The translations under genes were made by a program, and so were the position numbers. Positions 20,637 through 28,918 of a stretch of DNA of 64,000 nucleotides are shown one piece after another. Origin of the DNA: Burkholderiales bacterium PBB6 (GTDB lineage Bacteria > Pseudomonadota > Gammaproteobacteria > Burkholderiales > Burkholderiaceae_C); the NCBI GenBank assembly GCA_002255925.1, contig NKIH01000007.1, positions 186,001-250,000 on the forward strand, written 5' to 3'. The first letter of the stretch is position 1. The number at the start of each line of letters is the position of its first letter. Under the pieces are notes generated by a model. That model searched no databases. It had not been told where the DNA came from and saw only the letters and a list, made by a program, of their open reading frames with translations.

Positions 20637-21242
20637 ATGCCAATCGGCGACCATCTGATCTCCAATCGATCGATCTCGATTTTCAAATATACACACCATG
20701 GCATTGATCTCGGACGAGGGCGTGTGCTGCACTACTCCGGGCTAGCCAACGGCCCGACGGCCGGAAAAATCGAAATAACGACCCTTAGGAAGTTTAGCAA
20801 GGGCAAGAGTTTCACTCGTGTGAGCCCCAAGGATCGCGCGTACACAAGTCGTGACGCGGTTTTGCGTGCGATATCTCGATTAGGTGAAGATGAATACTGC
20901 GTTCTCACAAATAACTGTGAGCATCTTGCAGAATGGTCAATCAATGGTCGGCATCGGAGTCGGCAGGTGGACCGAGGCTTGACAGAAGGTGTTGCTCGTG
21001 CCCGTCAGGTCAGCGCTGCGTTGCTACCGGCGGGCCCGCTCGGGAGGGCATTGGCCATTTCTATTGTTGTGGCAGCGACAGTGGCATGTGGCGCCACAAC
21101 AAAGCGACAGCGCAATAAGGCGATTTCCCTCTCCAAGCCGCGCAATTTGTCCTCGGTCAAGCGGCACACTCGGGTTCTCACTCGGACCCTGCCTAAGCAA
21201 ATCGTCGGCGCAATTCGGCATCGAGGCAAGATTGTTCGTTAG
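20637..21242 (+). CDS. LRAT-domain (NlpC/P60-superfamily) protein with C-terminal hydrophobic segment
   Basis: A 201-residue protein with the circularly permuted papain-like fold of lecithin:retinol acyltransferase-type proteins. Expected residues: His21 in YTHHGIDLG with a following VLHYSG strand, and the nucleophile Cys94 in LTNNCEHLAEW. Relatives act as acyltransferases or phospholipases on membrane lipids. The domain ends near residue 105. A hydrophobic segment follows (about 128-150, AALLPAGPLGRALAISIV) and then a very basic tail rich in Arg and Lys. An AAGGGAA element lies 8-10 nt before the ATG. The next gene, 70 nt on, encodes a hydrophobic glycine-rich protein. Confidence 0.8.
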   Translation: MPIGDHLISNRSISIFKYTHHGIDLGRGRVLHYSGLANGPTAGKIEITTLRKFSKGKSFTRVSPKDRAYTSRDAVLRAISRLGEDEYCVLTNNCEHLAEWSINGRHRSRQVDRGLTEGVARARQVSAALLPAGPLGRALAISIVVAATVACGATTKRQRNKAISLSKPRNLSSVKRHTRVLTRTLPKQIVGAIRHRGKIVR

Positions 21243-21756: not shown

Positions 21757-22056
21757 TGACCTGCCCCCTTCAGCCGCACCAGCGATTTGGTCGGGGCCCT
21801 GGGGTTGAAGGTTAATGGATCTAGGCAGGGATCTCGTGACGAGCGGCGTCGCCTGCCTGCCGACGCAGTTGCTCGGCATACCTGGCTGGCGGTATGCGGC
21901 CAATGCTGCTGTGAGGTCGAACCTCGTTGTAGTCGCTGCGCCAGGTGGCGGTCTCGGTCCGGGCCTGGCGCAGGTTCTGGAACCAGTGCTCGTTGAGACA
22001 CTCGTCCCGGAACTTGCCGTTGAAGCTCTCGATGTAGCCGTTCTGTTGACGATTGC
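21757..22056 (-). mobile_element. IS3-family (IS407-like) element remnant
   Basis: Right-hand fragment of an insertion sequence. The sequence TGACCTGCCCCC at 21757-21768 looks like the terminal inverted repeat of an IS407-group element (from memory, not searched). Inside it, on the minus strand, is the last part of the transposase. The left end and about three quarters of the element are missing. Homology stops near 22056, where the TniQ-associated segment begins. Confidence 0.7.
21821..22056 (-). pseudogene. IS3-family transposase OrfB, C-terminal fragment
   Basis: About 77 residues of an integrase-core transposase. QNGYIESFNGKFRDECLNEH and YNEVRPHSSIGRIPPA are characteristic of the end of IS3-family OrfB and include the final catalytic Glu region (YIESFNGKFRDE). 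The catalytic Asp residues and the whole N terminus are absent, so it cannot be active. The stop is TAG at the complement of 21821-21823. Confidence 0.85.
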
Positions 22057-22063
22057 GTTGGAC

Positions 22064-22177
22064 TGACCCAATTTGCAGGTTTGTTGTCGGTTCGGATTGA
22101 CCCAGCGGATTGGTGGCTCCTCTAGAGGACAACGGATGCCAACCGATGGGTCAGCCCGACGCGATCCGCACGGGTCA
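22064..22177. repeat. Cluster of four GGGTCA motifs, two in each orientation
   Basis: GGGTCA occurs on the minus strand at 22064-22069 and 22098-22103 and on the plus strand at 22148-22153 and 22172-22177. The inner pair forms an imperfect inverted repeat (CCGC-TGGGTCA / CCGA-TGGGTCA) around a CCTCTAGAGG palindrome at 22119-22128. The outer plus-strand copy reads GGGTCAATCGGAGGCGAT and matches GGGTCAATCGAAGGTGAT at 20476. Arrays like this resemble transposase-binding sites at the ends of Tn7-like elements, but the motif is not one I know. Confidence 0.5.
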
Positions 22178-23347
22178 ATCGGAGGCGATCATCAACACAC
22201 TGGCCTCAAAGGCCTGCGGCACTGCACTCTCACGGGACTTTCGCCTTTCGTCGGCGGTATCAGCCTGGTTGCCAAGCAGCTCCGCGTTTGTCTCGACTGC
22301 TTGGCGGACGACGAGACAAATCGCTGTGAGCCTTACGAACGACTTTGGTGGCGTGTAGCCGCCGCCAAGTGCTGCCCGACACACGGACGCTACCTTGTAA
22401 CGCCCGCCTGCCGAGCGCCCAAGTTCAATGAGTGTGGCCGCTTTGTGCCCAAGTTGCCTGGTGTGTGCACTCACTGCGGCTCTATCGGCCACAAGTGCCA
22501 TTCTCAAACGACGCATGACGTGCCGACCTCGGATGAGATTTGGGTGGCTAATCAGGTTCGGCTGGTGATCAAAAATCTGTCCGCCATCGCGAATGCCGAC
22601 CCGAGGGCGATGAAGGACGAGCTCTCTCACTACTGCTGCGACCGGGGTGGACGCAAGCTGGTGGCTGAACGCGCAAAGATGTGCAAATCGCAGATGAGCT
22701 ACTGGCTCAACAAGCCTGCAGCGAGGACCTCACTCAGCCAACTGCTCGACATCGCATTGGCCGAGCAGTTCGATCTTGTGAGCCTGTTGATAGGAAAGCA
22801 TCAGCGCGAGCCGGTGCCAGGTAGTCGTGAGCCAAGACGCGTGCGCCGCATGAGCCTGCGCGCGGACCATGCGCGAATTCACAGGCTGCTGGTGGAGGCC
22901 AACGAACTCGGTGGCTCAGTGACCGAGGTAGCGCAGCAAGCAGGTGTCAATCTATCCACGCTGGCGAAGCATGAGGATCTTTATCTTGCACTGCGCGAGC
23001 AGCGTCAGGACGCCATGGAACACGCCGAAGCGGCCCGTCGACTGGAAGCTATTGCCGAGGCAGAGGACGTGTATGCGCGGCTCGTCAGTTCCGGTACGCG
23101 GCCAACGATGCGCGCGGCGAGCGACATGACCGGGGAGTGCTGGCGAGAGTCTCAACTACGCGGCATGTCTCTCATCCTGTTGAGGTTCAAGTTGGGCGAG
23201 AAGCAACTGAAGGTCCCCGGCCGCTACGCATCTACAGGACGAGAGTACCGATCGATGTTGCGGGCTGCTGCGGAGCGGTTGCGCGATCGCTTCGGATTGG
23301 GGCCGTCGGCGGATCCGCTGAGACGGGTGCCGTTTGTTTTGACATAG
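22136..23347 (+). CDS. TniQ/TnsD-like zinc-binding transposition protein, N terminus missing
   Basis: TniQ/TnsD proteins select targets for Tn7- and Tn5053-type transposons. The product (403 residues from the first in-frame ATG) has the TniQ zinc-finger region at about residues 45-115: RVCLDCLADDE, WRVAAAKCCPTHGRYL and GVCTHCGSIGHKC, preceded by the short conserved LRHCTLTGLSPF stretch. The roughly 100-residue N-terminal TniQ segment expected before it is absent; the gene begins right beside an IS fragment. A long C-terminal part (about 130-400) contains helix-turn-helix-like segments. No TnsA, TnsB or TnsC gene is nearby, so it is probably a relic or an orphan. Confidence 0.7.
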   Translation: MPTDGSARRDPHGSIGGDHQHTGLKGLRHCTLTGLSPFVGGISLVAKQLRVCLDCLADDETNRCEPYERLWWRVAAAKCCPTHGRYLVTPACRAPKFNECGRFVPKLPGVCTHCGSIGHKCHSQTTHDVPTSDEIWVANQVRLVIKNLSAIANADPRAMKDELSHYCCDRGGRKLVAERAKMCKSQMSYWLNKPAARTSLSQLLDIALAEQFDLVSLLIGKHQREPVPGSREPRRVRRMSLRADHARIHRLLVEANELGGSVTEVAQQAGVNLSTLAKHEDLYLALREQRQDAMEHAEAARRLEAIAEAEDVYARLVSSGTRPTMRAASDMTGECWRESQLRGMSLILLRFKLGEKQLKVPGRYASTGREYRSMLRAAAERLRDRFGLGPSADPLRRVPFVLT

Positions 23348-23982: not shown

Positions 23983-25260
23983 ATGGCAACCAAAGCACAA
24001 ATCGACCTCTTCCTTAGTGACCCCAGTTACCTGGCGCTCATCGGCCTGGAAAGAGAGCATCGGCTACTTTTCATCACAGACCTAACCGAGACCCGCATTT
24101 CCGCATTTTTGGGCTGGCTGTTTCGTCCCCAGGAGGGCCATGGGATCGGGGACCAGGCCTTTCGTGAACTGCTCCTCAACGTCTGGCGCACCAATCTTCG
24201 CGAAGAATTGGGGCATGACGTTCTGGCACCTCGTGACATCTTGGGTAAAACGTTCCGCGATCTGCTAGTCCACACCGAATACCGAGTGCATAGCGGCAAG
24301 GACGCAGGCAAGGGCCGGCCGATTGATTTGCTGTTGGTATCACGGCAGAACAAGTTGGTGGTGGCGATAGAGAACAAGTTCGGTAGCGCTGTCCACTCTG
24401 ACCAGTTGACGGCGTACCGAAATGGCATTGCTAAAGCCTTCCCGAGCTATCGCCAGACCTATGTTTACCTGGACTCCAACGAAGAAAACAAGCCGGGTAA
24501 TGATTACTGGATACCGTTGGGCTACCAATGGATGATCGACTTGATTTCGACGCACCAGAAATCCGGATTGCTGAGCGACCGCTCCCTTGATGCACTGGAC
24601 CAGTTCAAGGACTACCTCACGGAAGACCTGGCTTTATCAGGGAAGCGCGAGGAAGAGAAGGACACGCTCATCGAAAGCATCGCCAGGGGTCACGACTCCG
24701 TTCTGGACGTCTTTCGTAATTACAGAAAAGAACGGATCAGTGATCTGCTGGAAGACCCCTCGGTCACCATTCATGAGCCACTTCTGATTGAATACCAACA
24801 GCGCCGCGGACTGTGGAACGATGTCCTAGACCAGGCGCGCCATGTCGGGGTGGTTCAGGCGGCCAAACGGGCATTTGGCGCTCAACTGGAAGTAGCTACA
24901 GGTCCCGCAGAGGTGCGCTTGCGACTGAAGTCGTGGGCACGCTTTGAGGCCGACCCTGACAAGAACAAGTGGGTGCCACGTGTGGTGGCTTGGTCAGGGC
25001 GCGAAGGCAAAGGTAAGTACAACGTGTGGTCCTTCGCGAATTTCCGTGGCGTGAATCCAGATGTTGAAACCGGGGTTCGCGCTGCAGCACTTCAGCTTCG
25101 GGACAGCAATTTGAAGAAGCCTCCTGGTGCGGCGCAGTGGGTGAGGCTTGGGCTGGCCGAAGGATTGCCCATTGATAGAGCAGGCGCACACGTCGTCAGT
25201 GAGCTCATGCGAATGGATAAGGTACTGACAGCGGTAGAGGCAGATGCAGCAGTGTCCTGA
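23983..25260 (+). CDS. PD-(D/E)XK-superfamily nuclease-like protein
   Basis: A 425-residue protein with a PD-(D/E)XK core: Asp115 in GRPIDLLLV, then Glu130-x-Lys132 in KLVVAIENKFGS, followed by the helix SDQLTAYRNGI. An upstream helix with ETRISAFLGWLF supplies the usual N-terminal Glu. This arrangement matches the family annotated as PD-(D/E)XK nuclease superfamily (PDDEXK_4 type), often found in defence islands and near restriction genes. The C-terminal half (about 200-425) is not recognised. No methyltransferase is adjacent, so it is not a simple restriction enzyme. The ribosome-binding site is weak. Confidence 0.8.
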   Translation: MATKAQIDLFLSDPSYLALIGLEREHRLLFITDLTETRISAFLGWLFRPQEGHGIGDQAFRELLLNVWRTNLREELGHDVLAPRDILGKTFRDLLVHTEYRVHSGKDAGKGRPIDLLLVSRQNKLVVAIENKFGSAVHSDQLTAYRNGIAKAFPSYRQTYVYLDSNEENKPGNDYWIPLGYQWMIDLISTHQKSGLLSDRSLDALDQFKDYLTEDLALSGKREEEKDTLIESIARGHDSVLDVFRNYRKERISDLLEDPSVTIHEPLLIEYQQRRGLWNDVLDQARHVGVVQAAKRAFGAQLEVATGPAEVRLRLKSWARFEADPDKNKWVPRVVAWSGREGKGKYNVWSFANFRGVNPDVETGVRAAALQLRDSNLKKPPGAAQWVRLGLAEGLPIDRAGAHVVSELMRMDKVLTAVEADAAVS

Positions 25261-25818: not shown

Positions 25819-26772
25819 TCATGACACAGGATTGTGCCACTCGACTACCAAGTTCTTTTCATCCAACCAAAGCACTGAATGTCCACGACCCAATGTCCCC
25901 GCTCGGAATTCGGACTTTCGTTTGTCAATGGCAGTTCTCCCCCGATAGTGTGTTGCCAGATGTCCATCCAGATATTCGTCCCATCTCTTTTCGTGTGAAT
26001 TCCACTCAACAACCCGAATCTTCGACCTAGCACCAAGAAACTCTTCTTGTTTGAAGTTAATATTTCTTTGAGCCAATACATCCGAAGCATGCAGAAAGGC
26101 ATATTGACTCAAGCAGACATCAAAGCAGGCCGCGAATACTGGTATACGACGATAAACGTCTTCGCTAAAATCGGTCTGAAGATAGTTGAGTGGAAATGTG
26201 TGCGCAGCCGAATGCCGCTTCTTGGCCAAGCTATCAAAAATATCAAATATCTTGCTCGCGTCCGAAAAGCGAAATTTCTGCCCGACATAACTAAACGCCG
26301 CTTCAACTTCTTTGAATCCGATCGCCTGAAGCAGTCCTTTTATCATCCCGTCAGATACATTGGACGAAGATCGTCCGAAAAAGTACTCTGAGGGCACGAA
26401 CTTGCCGTTCTCACCCGTCTGACCAAGAAGCATTCCTTCAAGTTGAACGATGAAAGCCCGATCTACCTTTTCCGCTCTATCCAACGAGAAAGTTAGACCT
26501 TTGAGGGTCCCAATGAGAATGGTGGACTGCAAGCCTGCTGGTAGTGCAGCGAATGGAATATTCTGTTCCCCGAGCCACCGAACAATCTCAAAAGCCCGTC
26601 GCCTGACAAAATCCTCTAGTGCTGTAAAAGCAACGACCGAGAGTCCATTTAGCCTCAAATGTGCCGCGCTGCGGTTATTACCAAGCTGCTCCAGCGTCGG
26701 ATTTGGTAGCAGAGCGGCCTCCTCGCGCAGGCTAGTAAGTGCAGCAAGGAAGTCAGCGTAGGCGCTTTTCAC
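25819..26772 (-). CDS. HEPN-domain putative RNase, coupled to a DUF262 protein
   Basis: A 317-residue protein of the RiboL-PSP-HEPN / MAE_28990-like type. The HEPN signature R-x4-H is Arg186 to His191 in AKKRHSAAHTF, and an N-terminal helical bundle has FTALEDFVRRRAFE. HEPN proteins with this motif are usually metal-independent RNases and serve in toxin-antitoxin and anti-phage systems. The C-terminal 110 residues are of unknown function. Translation starts at GTG (complement of 26770-26772), overlapping the stop of the DUF262 gene as GTGA, so the two are translationally coupled. Codons are AT-rich compared with the chromosome. Confidence 0.78.
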   Translation of the reverse strand: MKSAYADFLAALTSLREEAALLPNPTLEQLGNNRSAAHLRLNGLSVVAFTALEDFVRRRAFEIVRWLGEQNIPFAALPAGLQSTILIGTLKGLTFSLDRAEKVDRAFIVQLEGMLLGQTGENGKFVPSEYFFGRSSSNVSDGMIKGLLQAIGFKEVEAAFSYVGQKFRFSDASKIFDIFDSLAKKRHSAAHTFPLNYLQTDFSEDVYRRIPVFAACFDVCLSQYAFLHASDVLAQRNINFKQEEFLGARSKIRVVEWNSHEKRWDEYLDGHLATHYRGRTAIDKRKSEFRAGTLGRGHSVLWLDEKNLVVEWHNPVS

Positions 26773-27878
26773 GACGCCCTCAGAATCTCGAGCACGCGAG
26801 CAACTCTTTCCCGGACGAAGGATGGGGTATTTGTACCTTGCCTAACAATTCGCTCAAACGATGCATCTTGGAAAAGCTTCGCAGTCTTTTTCAGGATTGA
26901 CGCGCTATTTCCCTTAGCTGATTTCAGCTCATTGGGTGTCAGTTCGTTTACCGCCAACATTTCCGCGTCGTAAACGCCCGCCAAAAACTGATCACGCCAG
27001 CCAGTTCCCGTGAATCTCTGAAATGCGTACTTCCCCCATATTTCTTCGCATGAATTTAAAGCCCTTTCGAACCTCTTCTTCAATGCGTCGAGTTCGGCCT
27101 TTGAATCCTTTATGTGACGCACCATGCACAAATCGAGTTCATCCCTAAGTGAGCCAGAGAAGTGCTGCCACGATTCACTCAACGCGAAGAATCGAAGTAC
27201 GTACTCAGCGTCTGCCATCTGAGCATAGGCCGGCGATTTCTCGTCCGAAATCTTGAGTTGCGCTCTCAGAAAGGTTTCGTTGGAAAGATGGTAAATCAAA
27301 TCACTAAATCCGCCCCGATAAGCCACCTTGCGCAGTTCTTGAGCGAGCATCTGTTCGCCGCCGCGATTTAGGCGCGTAAAAACTTCGAATTTTAGAGTTG
27401 GATCGGACTGCTTTAAAAGCGTTACCACTCGGACATAAGGTCTAATATTCAATGCGTTTTGAAGATCCTCCGGCAGACCATCAAAGTCATAGCCTTCGAG
27501 CTCCGAGAATGTTTCCAAGTTCTTGAGCTGGAGCTTCTCAACCATAAACGCATGTATTGCGGTTAGGCGCTGCTTACCGTCCACGACAGAATACTGGCCA
27601 TAGGCATCTTCTGCTAAATAGATGGGAGGCACCGGGACATTCATGAGAAATGATTCAATCAGTGCTGATTGCTTATCAGCCGTCCAACGTTGCCGCCGCT
27701 GAAAGTCGGGGGCCAAGTCGATTGCAGCCTTGCCTCTCGAGTCCGGCTTCAACATGCCGGCAAGCGAGGAGAGCGACAGATCGGCAGTCTGGTAAACCAA
27801 ACGGTCCTGCGCTTTGAGAAAGCGCCCCAAAATAGCCGAAGCTTTGTTCGCGGGCTTTTTAATATCAGCTTTGTTCAA
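26769..27878 (-). CDS. DUF262-domain protein (GmrSD/ParB-like)
   Basis: A 369-residue protein with a DUF262 core in the N-terminal half: APDFQRRQRWTADKQSALIE, the hallmark VVDGKQRLTAI, and FTRLNRGGEQMLAQELR. DUF262 is a ParB/sulfiredoxin-like fold that hydrolyses nucleotides in GmrS-type restriction proteins and several defence systems. Only the N-terminal domain is canonical; the C-terminal third is not the HNH (DUF1524) nuclease of GmrSD. The downstream HEPN gene would then be the effector. The start is TTG at the complement of 27876-27878, with GAGGTGA just upstream, a strong ribosome-binding site for a rare start codon. Confidence 0.88.
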   Translation of the reverse strand: MNKADIKKPANKASAILGRFLKAQDRLVYQTADLSLSSLAGMLKPDSRGKAAIDLAPDFQRRQRWTADKQSALIESFLMNVPVPPIYLAEDAYGQYSVVDGKQRLTAIHAFMVEKLQLKNLETFSELEGYDFDGLPEDLQNALNIRPYVRVVTLLKQSDPTLKFEVFTRLNRGGEQMLAQELRKVAYRGGFSDLIYHLSNETFLRAQLKISDEKSPAYAQMADAEYVLRFFALSESWQHFSGSLRDELDLCMVRHIKDSKAELDALKKRFERALNSCEEIWGKYAFQRFTGTGWRDQFLAGVYDAEMLAVNELTPNELKSAKGNSASILKKTAKLFQDASFERIVRQGTNTPSFVRERVARVLEILRAS

Positions 27879-28042
27879 TATTCACCTCAGCTCTGAATTG
27901 GCACTGGATTGCAGCGCGCGAGAATTAGTTCGTCTTGCACGATCAAAATTCGGAATAGATTACCATATGGCAACTGATCTGCCAGCCTCATAGGTAGGCA
28001 ACAACACCTATGTCCGCAGGTGGCCGGAAGCCGCTCCCGCCT

Positions 28043-28918
28043 TCAAAAAGGAATGTCGTCATCCATGTCGTCGAATCCGGTCGGCTGCGTTGGCATTTTC
28101 CTTTTGCCGGGACGGAGGGCTGGCGCAGAAAGCTCAATGATTCTGTCCTCATGCTTCAGGAAAGCATCTGTGCCGTCCTCGGTTGCCGAGAATGCGAAAT
28201 ATTCCCATCCTTGGTCGTCCAAAGCGTTGGTTTTCTCGATGTACCCAAGCTTCGACAGCTTGATCGCGCTCATCGCCAGCACGGGATCGGGGGACTGCAT
28301 TTGATTGGCGATCTGATGGAACGGGATTCCTACGACATCTGAAATTGTGCTTCTAACGCATACCGCGAGGAAGCGCAGGTCGTTGTCCTGGAGCTTGTAG
28401 TCGGGTGGGTTGGCGACGTGCCTCGCCGGGCCGATCTGCTTTGAGAAGGGCGAACGATCGATCGCGCCCTTTTCCTTAATCCTGTCCTTGATCTGCTTGC
28501 ACGCGACGTTCAAGGCCGAAGAGATGTCGCCGTCCGGTCGGTCAGCAACATAGTCAGCAGTGTTCATCCCGAGCAGATCAGAAGGCAGATGCATTTCCAC
28601 GTCTCGCGGCTTAACGACGTAGCAACGCTCCTTACCAATCGCGCCGATGAACAGCCCCAGCTCGAAGATAACGTTGTCGCGCGCGGTAGCGTGCTGCTTT
28701 TCTCGGATCGTCGTGAGATCGTCGGGCGTGAAGACAAACACCGCGAAGTCAACCGTCGAGGATTTCTTGACGAGATCGTCGATCGTTTGCGAGCTGAGCT
28801 TAAAGGTGCCCGTGCGCCAAACGGTGCAATGTACGTCGTGGTCGAGGTTCTCGTTGATCGCGTCCGCCACGTGAAGGCCCTCGACCGAAGAGGCAATGAA
28901 CAGCGCTGGCTTTGTCAT
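28043..28918 (-). CDS. TIR-like nucleotide-binding protein with C-terminal winged-helix-like domain
   Basis: A 291-residue protein. Residues 1 to about 150 match the 'predicted nucleotide-binding protein containing TIR-like domain' family (CBASS/Pycsar effector type): ALFIASSVEGLHVADAI at the N terminus, a Val/Phe-rich strand DFAVFVFTPDD, and the signature RDNVIFELGLFIG with candidate catalytic Glu86. Such domains degrade NAD+ during phage defence. Residues about 175-265 look like a winged helix (ISDVVGIPFHQIANQM, AIKLSKLGYIEK). The end is acidic (FDDMDDDIPF). No cyclase gene is present in the window, so it is either a stand-alone defence gene or responds to another signal. Confidence 0.8.
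   Translation of the reverse strand: MTKPALFIASSVEGLHVADAINENLDHDVHCTVWRTGTFKLSSQTIDDLVKKSSTVDFAVFVFTPDDLTTIREKQHATARDNVIFELGLFIGAIGKERCYVVKPRDVEMHLPSDLLGMNTADYVADRPDGDISSALNVACKQIKDRIKEKGAIDRSPFSKQIGPARHVANPPDYKLQDNDLRFLAVCVRSTISDVVGIPFHQIANQMQSPDPVLAMSAIKLSKLGYIEKTNALDDQGWEYFAFSATEDGTDAFLKHEDRIIELSAPALRPGKRKMPTQPTGFDDMDDDIPF

Follow-up and report, generated by a model that had tools for sequence, protein, structure and literature searches.

A diverged DUF262-HEPN gene pair in a Burkholderiales genome as a candidate anti-phage operon

The stretch of DNA analysed here, 64,000 nucleotides from contig NKIH01000007.1 of Burkholderiales bacterium PBB6 and hereafter called the window, carries a real and intact pair of genes encoding a DUF262 protein and a HEPN protein (Table 1). 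The original prediction, made from the sequence before any database search, had described the two as a co-expressed pair, and its coordinates and reading frames were found to be exact; the strand, absent from that prediction, is the minus strand. Inspection of the sequence together with Pfam searches verified that the DUF262 gene comes first and that the HEPN gene follows directly on the same strand, and the sequence itself verified the 4-nt GTGA overlap and the ribosome-binding site in front of the TTG start of the DUF262 gene, whereas the HEPN gene starts with GTG. The GC content is 48% for the HEPN gene and 50% for the DUF262 gene, as opposed to 65.5% for the window. Judging by the surrounding genes, the neighbourhood resembles an island into which defence-type genes have been acquired. 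They include a TIR gene of the CAP12/Pycsar-effector type, and no cyclase was found among the nine ORFs scanned. Note also that one relative of the TIR protein (L148, 67%) has one TGA inside its frame, and that plasmid relatives of this protein are annotated as "nucleotide-binding protein."

Table 1. The DUF262-HEPN gene pair and neighbouring features, with positions counted from the first nucleotide of the window.
Feature	Position	Strand	Description
LRAT-like domain gene	20637-21242	+	PF04970, 4e-15
Transposon-like remnants	21821-23347		rve_3 integrase-core fragment (-); ORF with sub-threshold TniQ match (+)
PD-(D/E)XK nuclease-family gene	23983-25260	+	PDDEXK_4, 7e-20; PADLOC candidate PDC-S26, 3e-37
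HEPN gene (RiboL-PSP-HEPN-like)	25819-26772	-	317 aa, second of pair; predicted RNase effector, R186-x4-H191
HEPN protein, C-terminal part	25819-26118	-	residues 219-317, past the HEPN domain; without family match
GTGA overlap, 4 nt	26769-26772	-	HEPN GTG start and DUF262 TGA stop (sequence)
DUF262 gene (GmrSD_N, ParB/Srx-like fold)	26769-27878	-	369 aa, first of pair; predicted NTP-binding sensor
GAGGTG ribosome-binding site	27883-27888	-	4 nt before DUF262 TTG start (sequence)
TIR gene, CAP12/Pycsar-effector type	28043-28918	-	PF10137, 5e-34; weak winged-helix match in C-terminal part
Tyrosine recombinase, 231 aa	29369-30064	-	XerC-type models matched in C-terminal part only; possibly truncated

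The first protein matches the Pfam family GmrSD_N (PF03235, E 1.1e-22) and has the motifs DFQRR, DGKQR and FTRLNRG intact, which bears out both its predicted identity and the two motifs, DGKQR and FTRLNRG, on which that identity had been based. The DUF1524 nuclease was likewise correctly predicted to be missing as far as the nine ORFs scanned by Pfam are concerned (the DUF262 protein and eight others), and Pfam found no other nuclease domain in the DUF262 protein. A PDB sequence search with this protein returned zero matches. Among the PADLOC models, NsnA matched it best (227 bits), and PD-T4-2_A reached 107 bits (E 2.4e-31). The same genome holds a second DUF262 match (L001, G000:C20:446175-446840) in a frame of 747 aa, long enough to be compatible with a GmrSD-type fusion.

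The sole Pfam match of the second protein up to E 1 is PF18735 (HEPN_RiboL-PSP; E 0.0041), and its 17.5 bits lie below the Pfam cut-off of 28.4 bits; two relatives discussed below, the HEPN proteins of loci L005 and L006, score above (30.1 bits) and below (24.8 bits) this cut-off, respectively. The R-x4-H motif predicted at Arg186-His191 is present as RHSAAH (residues 186-191), but such a motif on its own is at chance level, because at least one is carried by 48.6% of 5000 composition shuffles of the protein; the assignment rests on homology. When an alignment of the window, Ideonella and Quisquiliibacterium HEPN proteins was compared by hhalign with 14 DUF262-linked HEPN proteins, a match with a probability of 90% (E 1.6e-6) was obtained, spanning 161 columns and with R-x4-H in register. 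Conservation of the motif among homologues, which had been proposed as a check, is seen in the alignment of R and H in 29/29 DUF262-linked HEPN proteins, a count biased towards conservation because these rows were collected with an HMM built partly from those same rows. Taken together, the hhalign match and the alignment establish the motif as real. The HEPN domain ends at residue 218 according to the Pfam match and at residue 213 according to the hhalign match. No PADLOC model, PD-T4-2_B included, matched the protein up to E 10, in a search where HMMER filters discard most weak matches, and a PDB sequence search gave one weak, irrelevant match. Searches of genome contigs, plasmids and phages with the HEPN protein alone found no homologues, and the DUF262 protein was therefore used as the query for relatives of the pair. 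The profile comparison and the conserved motif identify the second protein as a diverged RiboL-PSP-HEPN homologue.

Of 94 loci with DUF262 relatives retrieved from genome contigs, 80 were kept. In Ideonella alba (L005) and Quisquiliibacterium transsilvanicum (L006) the DUF262 proteins are 65-68% identical to that of the window, and in the same order a HEPN gene with the motif RHSSAH starts 7 nt after the DUF262 gene; the neighbouring ORFs, judged by eye, are unlike those of the window, and both loci lack the TIR gene. Locus L004, from a genome labelled as the same genus as that of the window, has both protein sequences identical to those of L005, and the two were counted once; the shared genus label suggests that the window comes from Ideonella or one of its GTDB neighbours. 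Approached from the HEPN family, PF18735 gave 57 matches in 53/398 genomes of one phylum, and 30 of these 57 loci were read, nearly all of them the best-scoring matches. Adjacency in other genomes, set as a test by the original prediction, was found in 15 of these 30 best-scoring loci, where a DUF262 gene lies directly upstream, and in 32 of the 33 DUF262 rows that fall with the window in the tree described below; the remaining 15 HEPN loci are without DUF262 directly upstream or unjudgeable, as is L133, whose start is only 24 bases from the end of its contig. The intergenic gap is between -80 and +30 nt in 27 of 29 HEPN-partnered loci, and the genes overlap in 16 of the 29 when the longest ORF is taken. 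Locally the pair is rare, one other genome having a HEPN match among the 149 searched (its own included).

DUF262 genes followed by a Pfam-supported HEPN gene also occur in phage records (L088, L139, L140 and L141) and on plasmids (L085, L087 and L144); no DUF262 was found in the viral contigs scanned. One of the phage loci, L140, belongs to the P2-like phage Peduovirus P24B2, where the genes for DUF262 and for a HEPN of the MAE_28990 type lie close to a DNA methyltransferase and the replication nicking gene; this pair is present at 99-100% identity in 3/5426 E. coli genomes. HEPN is not the partner of every DUF262 relative, ATPase or unassigned genes being common. In phage vB_EcoM-689R6 (L143) the second gene is without a Pfam match, another phage locus (L142) is annotated as Menshen, the partner on plasmids L145 and L146 is an ATPase, and on plasmid L086 the DUF262 gene is split over two frames and no HEPN was found.

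The distribution of partners was compared with a tree of 81 DUF262 proteins, from which duplicates with identical sequence were excluded, as were L002-L004, copies of one and the same locus, and in which the ATPase rows were thinned to every second one. A single branch (100/98) splits 33 rows from 48. On the 33-row side, 29 rows have a HEPN partner by HMM and three more (L094, L100 and L103), whose labels were changed by eye, have directly downstream genes with RNKIAH, RNDLAH or RNKLAH; for L090 no partner was found in the stretch read. On the 48-row side, 40 rows have a Menshen-type ATPase partner and in eight the partner is unassigned. The window DUF262 lies on the HEPN-partnered side and clusters with L005 and L006 (100/100), and then with L088, the pair of a Vibrio phage, and with L132 (99/97). 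In a reduced quick tree, to which the PD-T4-2_B-matching locus L138 was added, the 30 ATPase rows again all fall to the same side (99), a clean split that owes something to the 18 rows left out, which include the eight unassigned ATPase-side rows and the long row L054; here the starred grouping of the window takes in L005 and L006, the link to L088 and L132 being unstarred. As the tree is unrooted, no order of HEPN and ATPase partnership is claimed. Judging from these trees, DUF262 proteins with a HEPN partner form a wide and deeply branching group and do not reflect a recent swap in the window. The earlier description of HEPN as taking the place of DUF1524 is fair as a statement of architecture, but would not be as one of recent replacement.

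The two proteins differ in their conservation. Between the window and L005 the identity is 66% for DUF262 and 25% for HEPN, compared with 83% and 73% between L005 and L006; in six other close pairs it ranges over 54-76% for DUF262 and 31-65% for HEPN. In a HEPN tree, computed by a quick method and subject to a long-branch warning, the window, L005 and L006 group together (SH-aLRT 99), so that both proteins of the window group with the same two relatives. A recent swap of the HEPN partner in the window is disfavoured by this grouping, which favours, without proving it, fast divergence of the HEPN protein after joint descent.

The association of DUF262 with HEPN is not new. That it had been noted in genome surveys is confirmed by a survey table in which RiboL-PSP-HEPN is listed as "operon with ParB" (Anantharaman 2013, PMC3710099); as entered there, the class has the same domain pairing, is bacterial and has its active-site motif marked as present. 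It differs in being a survey class only, and the window HEPN falls below the Pfam cut-off. The named relative is PD-T4-2, which blocks T4 in E. coli: its deletion from E. coli ECOR65 is described as greatly raising T4 plaquing (PMC9519451). PMC10952713 lists PD-T4-2 among the systems with DUF262 as well as among those with HEPN PF18735, and states that DUF1524 is missing from PD-T4-2, Menshen and Dazbog alike. The similarity lies in the two genes, DUF262 and then a HEPN with R-x4-H (RDNAAH), which are directly adjacent in L138, the sole locus found to match PADLOC PD-T4-2_B, a model that matched 1/299 genomes. The window pair differs in that its DUF262 reaches only 107 bits with PD-T4-2_A, less than with NsnA, in that its HEPN is without a PD-T4-2_B match, and in HEPN length (317 aa vs. 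169 aa, about twofold); hhalign aligned the window HEPN with the L138 protein over 19 columns around the motif with a probability of 5%. Whether the pair might prove to be a known, named system, which the original prediction had set down as one way to refute it, has a divided answer: the pairing is of a known kind (as tabulated in PMC3710099) and has a named relative in PD-T4-2, but the window pair has diverged from the latter. It is a divergent cousin within the DUF262-HEPN kind that includes PD-T4-2. A literature search, limited mostly to papers outside subscription and without bioRxiv preprints, found no mechanism paper for a DUF262-HEPN pair.

The best PADLOC match of the window DUF262 calls for comparison with Menshen. 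NsnA is a related DUF262 that is first in its operon and often overlaps the following gene by 4 nt. The partner in Menshen, however, is an AAA_15/AAA_21 ATPase and not a HEPN protein, the gene directly downstream of the window DUF262 encodes a HEPN protein rather than the NsnB ATPase, and the two types lie on opposite sides of the DUF262 tree. NsnA was the best PADLOC match for all ten distinct HEPN-partnered DUF262 proteins scored (203-257 bits), and the sole ATPase-partnered one scored reached 471 bits; because of this difference, the NsnA label on the window DUF262 is a breadth effect and not a sign of membership. Since the HEPN protein has no PADLOC match and lies below the Pfam cut-off, annotation would miss the window pair or label it in part as "NsnA." Single-gene calls with the NsnA model (PDLC03877) could mislabel HEPN-partnered DUF262 proteins.

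More distant systems share single elements with the pair. GmrSD, BrxU, SspE and GrwAB are described as having DUF262 with QR, DGxQR and FxxxN motifs, but their effector is the His-Me nuclease DUF1524, whereas here it would be a HEPN protein encoded by a separate gene. CoCoNuTs are alike in outline, as summarised in PMC11090510, with a HEPN RNase beside a restriction-type NTPase, a missing or inactive DNA nuclease and often overlapping frames; they differ in using the McrB GTPase and not DUF262 as the NTPase, and in having many more genes. CoCoNuTs, which belong to the McrBC-type group of Type IV restriction, are thus a parallel and not members of the same family.

We consider it probable that the two genes form an anti-phage operon, gained by horizontal transfer, whose DUF262 protein gates a HEPN RNase. 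The DUF262 protein, a predicted NTP-binding switch with a ParB/Srx-like fold, would be made first, with its translation coupled to that of the HEPN protein, which it would keep from assembling or from being active. On infection, DUF262 would read a cue from the phage, probably some property of its DNA or of nucleotide metabolism, and change its own nucleotide state; the R-x4-H site of HEPN would then cut RNA, translation and phage production would stop, and the infected cell would undergo growth arrest or death. A role in defence is suggested by PD-T4-2 and by the mobile-element contexts, and RNase activity by the HEPN motif; the abortive outcome is likewise presumed. Sensing by DUF262 is suggested by SspE, whose DUF262 NTPase is described as being set off when modified DNA is recognised and as then switching on the nuclease domain, and by GrwAB, where activity is reported to be lost on changing the DUF262 arginine of either protein. 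Because of this analogy, and because QR, DGKQR and FTRLN are intact, we assign the role of switch to the window DUF262 and that of output to HEPN.

A different division of labour, with DUF262 acting chiefly as an antitoxin to the HEPN RNase and sensing nothing, so that shut-off of host expression by a phage would free the toxin, seems to us unlikely, if the strongest of the competing readings. The gene overlap and the small, two-gene size do resemble toxin-antitoxin operons, and HEPN RNases are reported from toxin-antitoxin systems in passages of PMC9519451 and PMC12839542. However, DGxQR is kept in 28/29 and FxxxN-type motifs in 27/29 of the aligned HEPN-partnered DUF262 rows, which suggests a working nucleotide site, and the much better conservation of DUF262 than of HEPN (66% vs. 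25% for the window and L005) would be unlike a simple binding antitoxin. It is improbable that DUF262 itself acts on phage DNA and that HEPN serves as a backup suicide effector. The ParB-like fold is counted, in the R-M contexts covered by PMC3710099, among the endoDNase domains found with HEPN, and DUF262 is described as tied to modified DNA in GmrSD-type systems; against this, the accounts of GmrSD, BrxU and SspE assign DNA cutting or nicking to DUF1524, the very domain absent from the nine ORFs scanned, and the Pfam scan of the DUF262 protein revealed no nuclease domain of another kind.

The TIR gene, of the CAP12/Pycsar type, on the same strand and 164 nt upstream, could be imagined as the second effector of a three-gene system, which we regard as very improbable. 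A tblastn search of 152 loci with the TIR protein gave matches in the loci of the window itself and in those collected as TIR relatives, but none elsewhere, so that L005, L006 and all further DUF262 loci are without it; the relatives L148, L149 and L150 are without DUF262 or HEPN within about 1.5 kb, and the GC content of the TIR gene is 56% vs. the 48% and 50% of the pair. As its relatives lack the pair nearby and it stands beside no other DUF262 locus, the TIR gene was left out of the system and is probably independent of it. A Menshen-type system in which HEPN had replaced NsnB/NsnC, to which the 227-bit NsnA match might point, is scarcely credible and was rejected on the identity of the partner and the DUF262 tree, where HEPN- and ATPase-partnered proteins fall on opposite sides of one branch (100/98; 99 in the quick tree), and in view of the gap between 203-257 and 471 bits.

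On one speculative and rather doubtful reading, the clade of the window would be a distinct DUF262-HEPN branch, a sensor-gated RNase system that responds to a trigger of its own and could not stand in for PD-T4-2. Its sensor would be near-constant, whereas the HEPN protein, with its extra C-terminal region of ~100 residues, would change at an unusual pace, as though to evade inhibitors made by phages or to follow another RNA target.

The DUF262-HEPN pairing was thus known already, and what sequence comparison adds here is a diverged member with relatives in Ideonella alba and Quisquiliibacterium. The lineage as a whole is suggested to be common, since half of the 30 RiboL-PSP-HEPN loci read, nearly all of them top-scoring matches from a single phylum, belong to it. 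Existing models cover it poorly, PD-T4-2_B being found in a single one of 299 genomes and the sensor receiving the Menshen label "NsnA." The interest lies not in the copy in the window but in this broad, under-annotated lineage and its trigger. The window pair, which is small and intact and has the base composition of foreign DNA, is well suited as a test case. DUF262 is known as a gate for DNA nucleases; the HEPN-partnered lineage would make it a switch for RNA cutting too.
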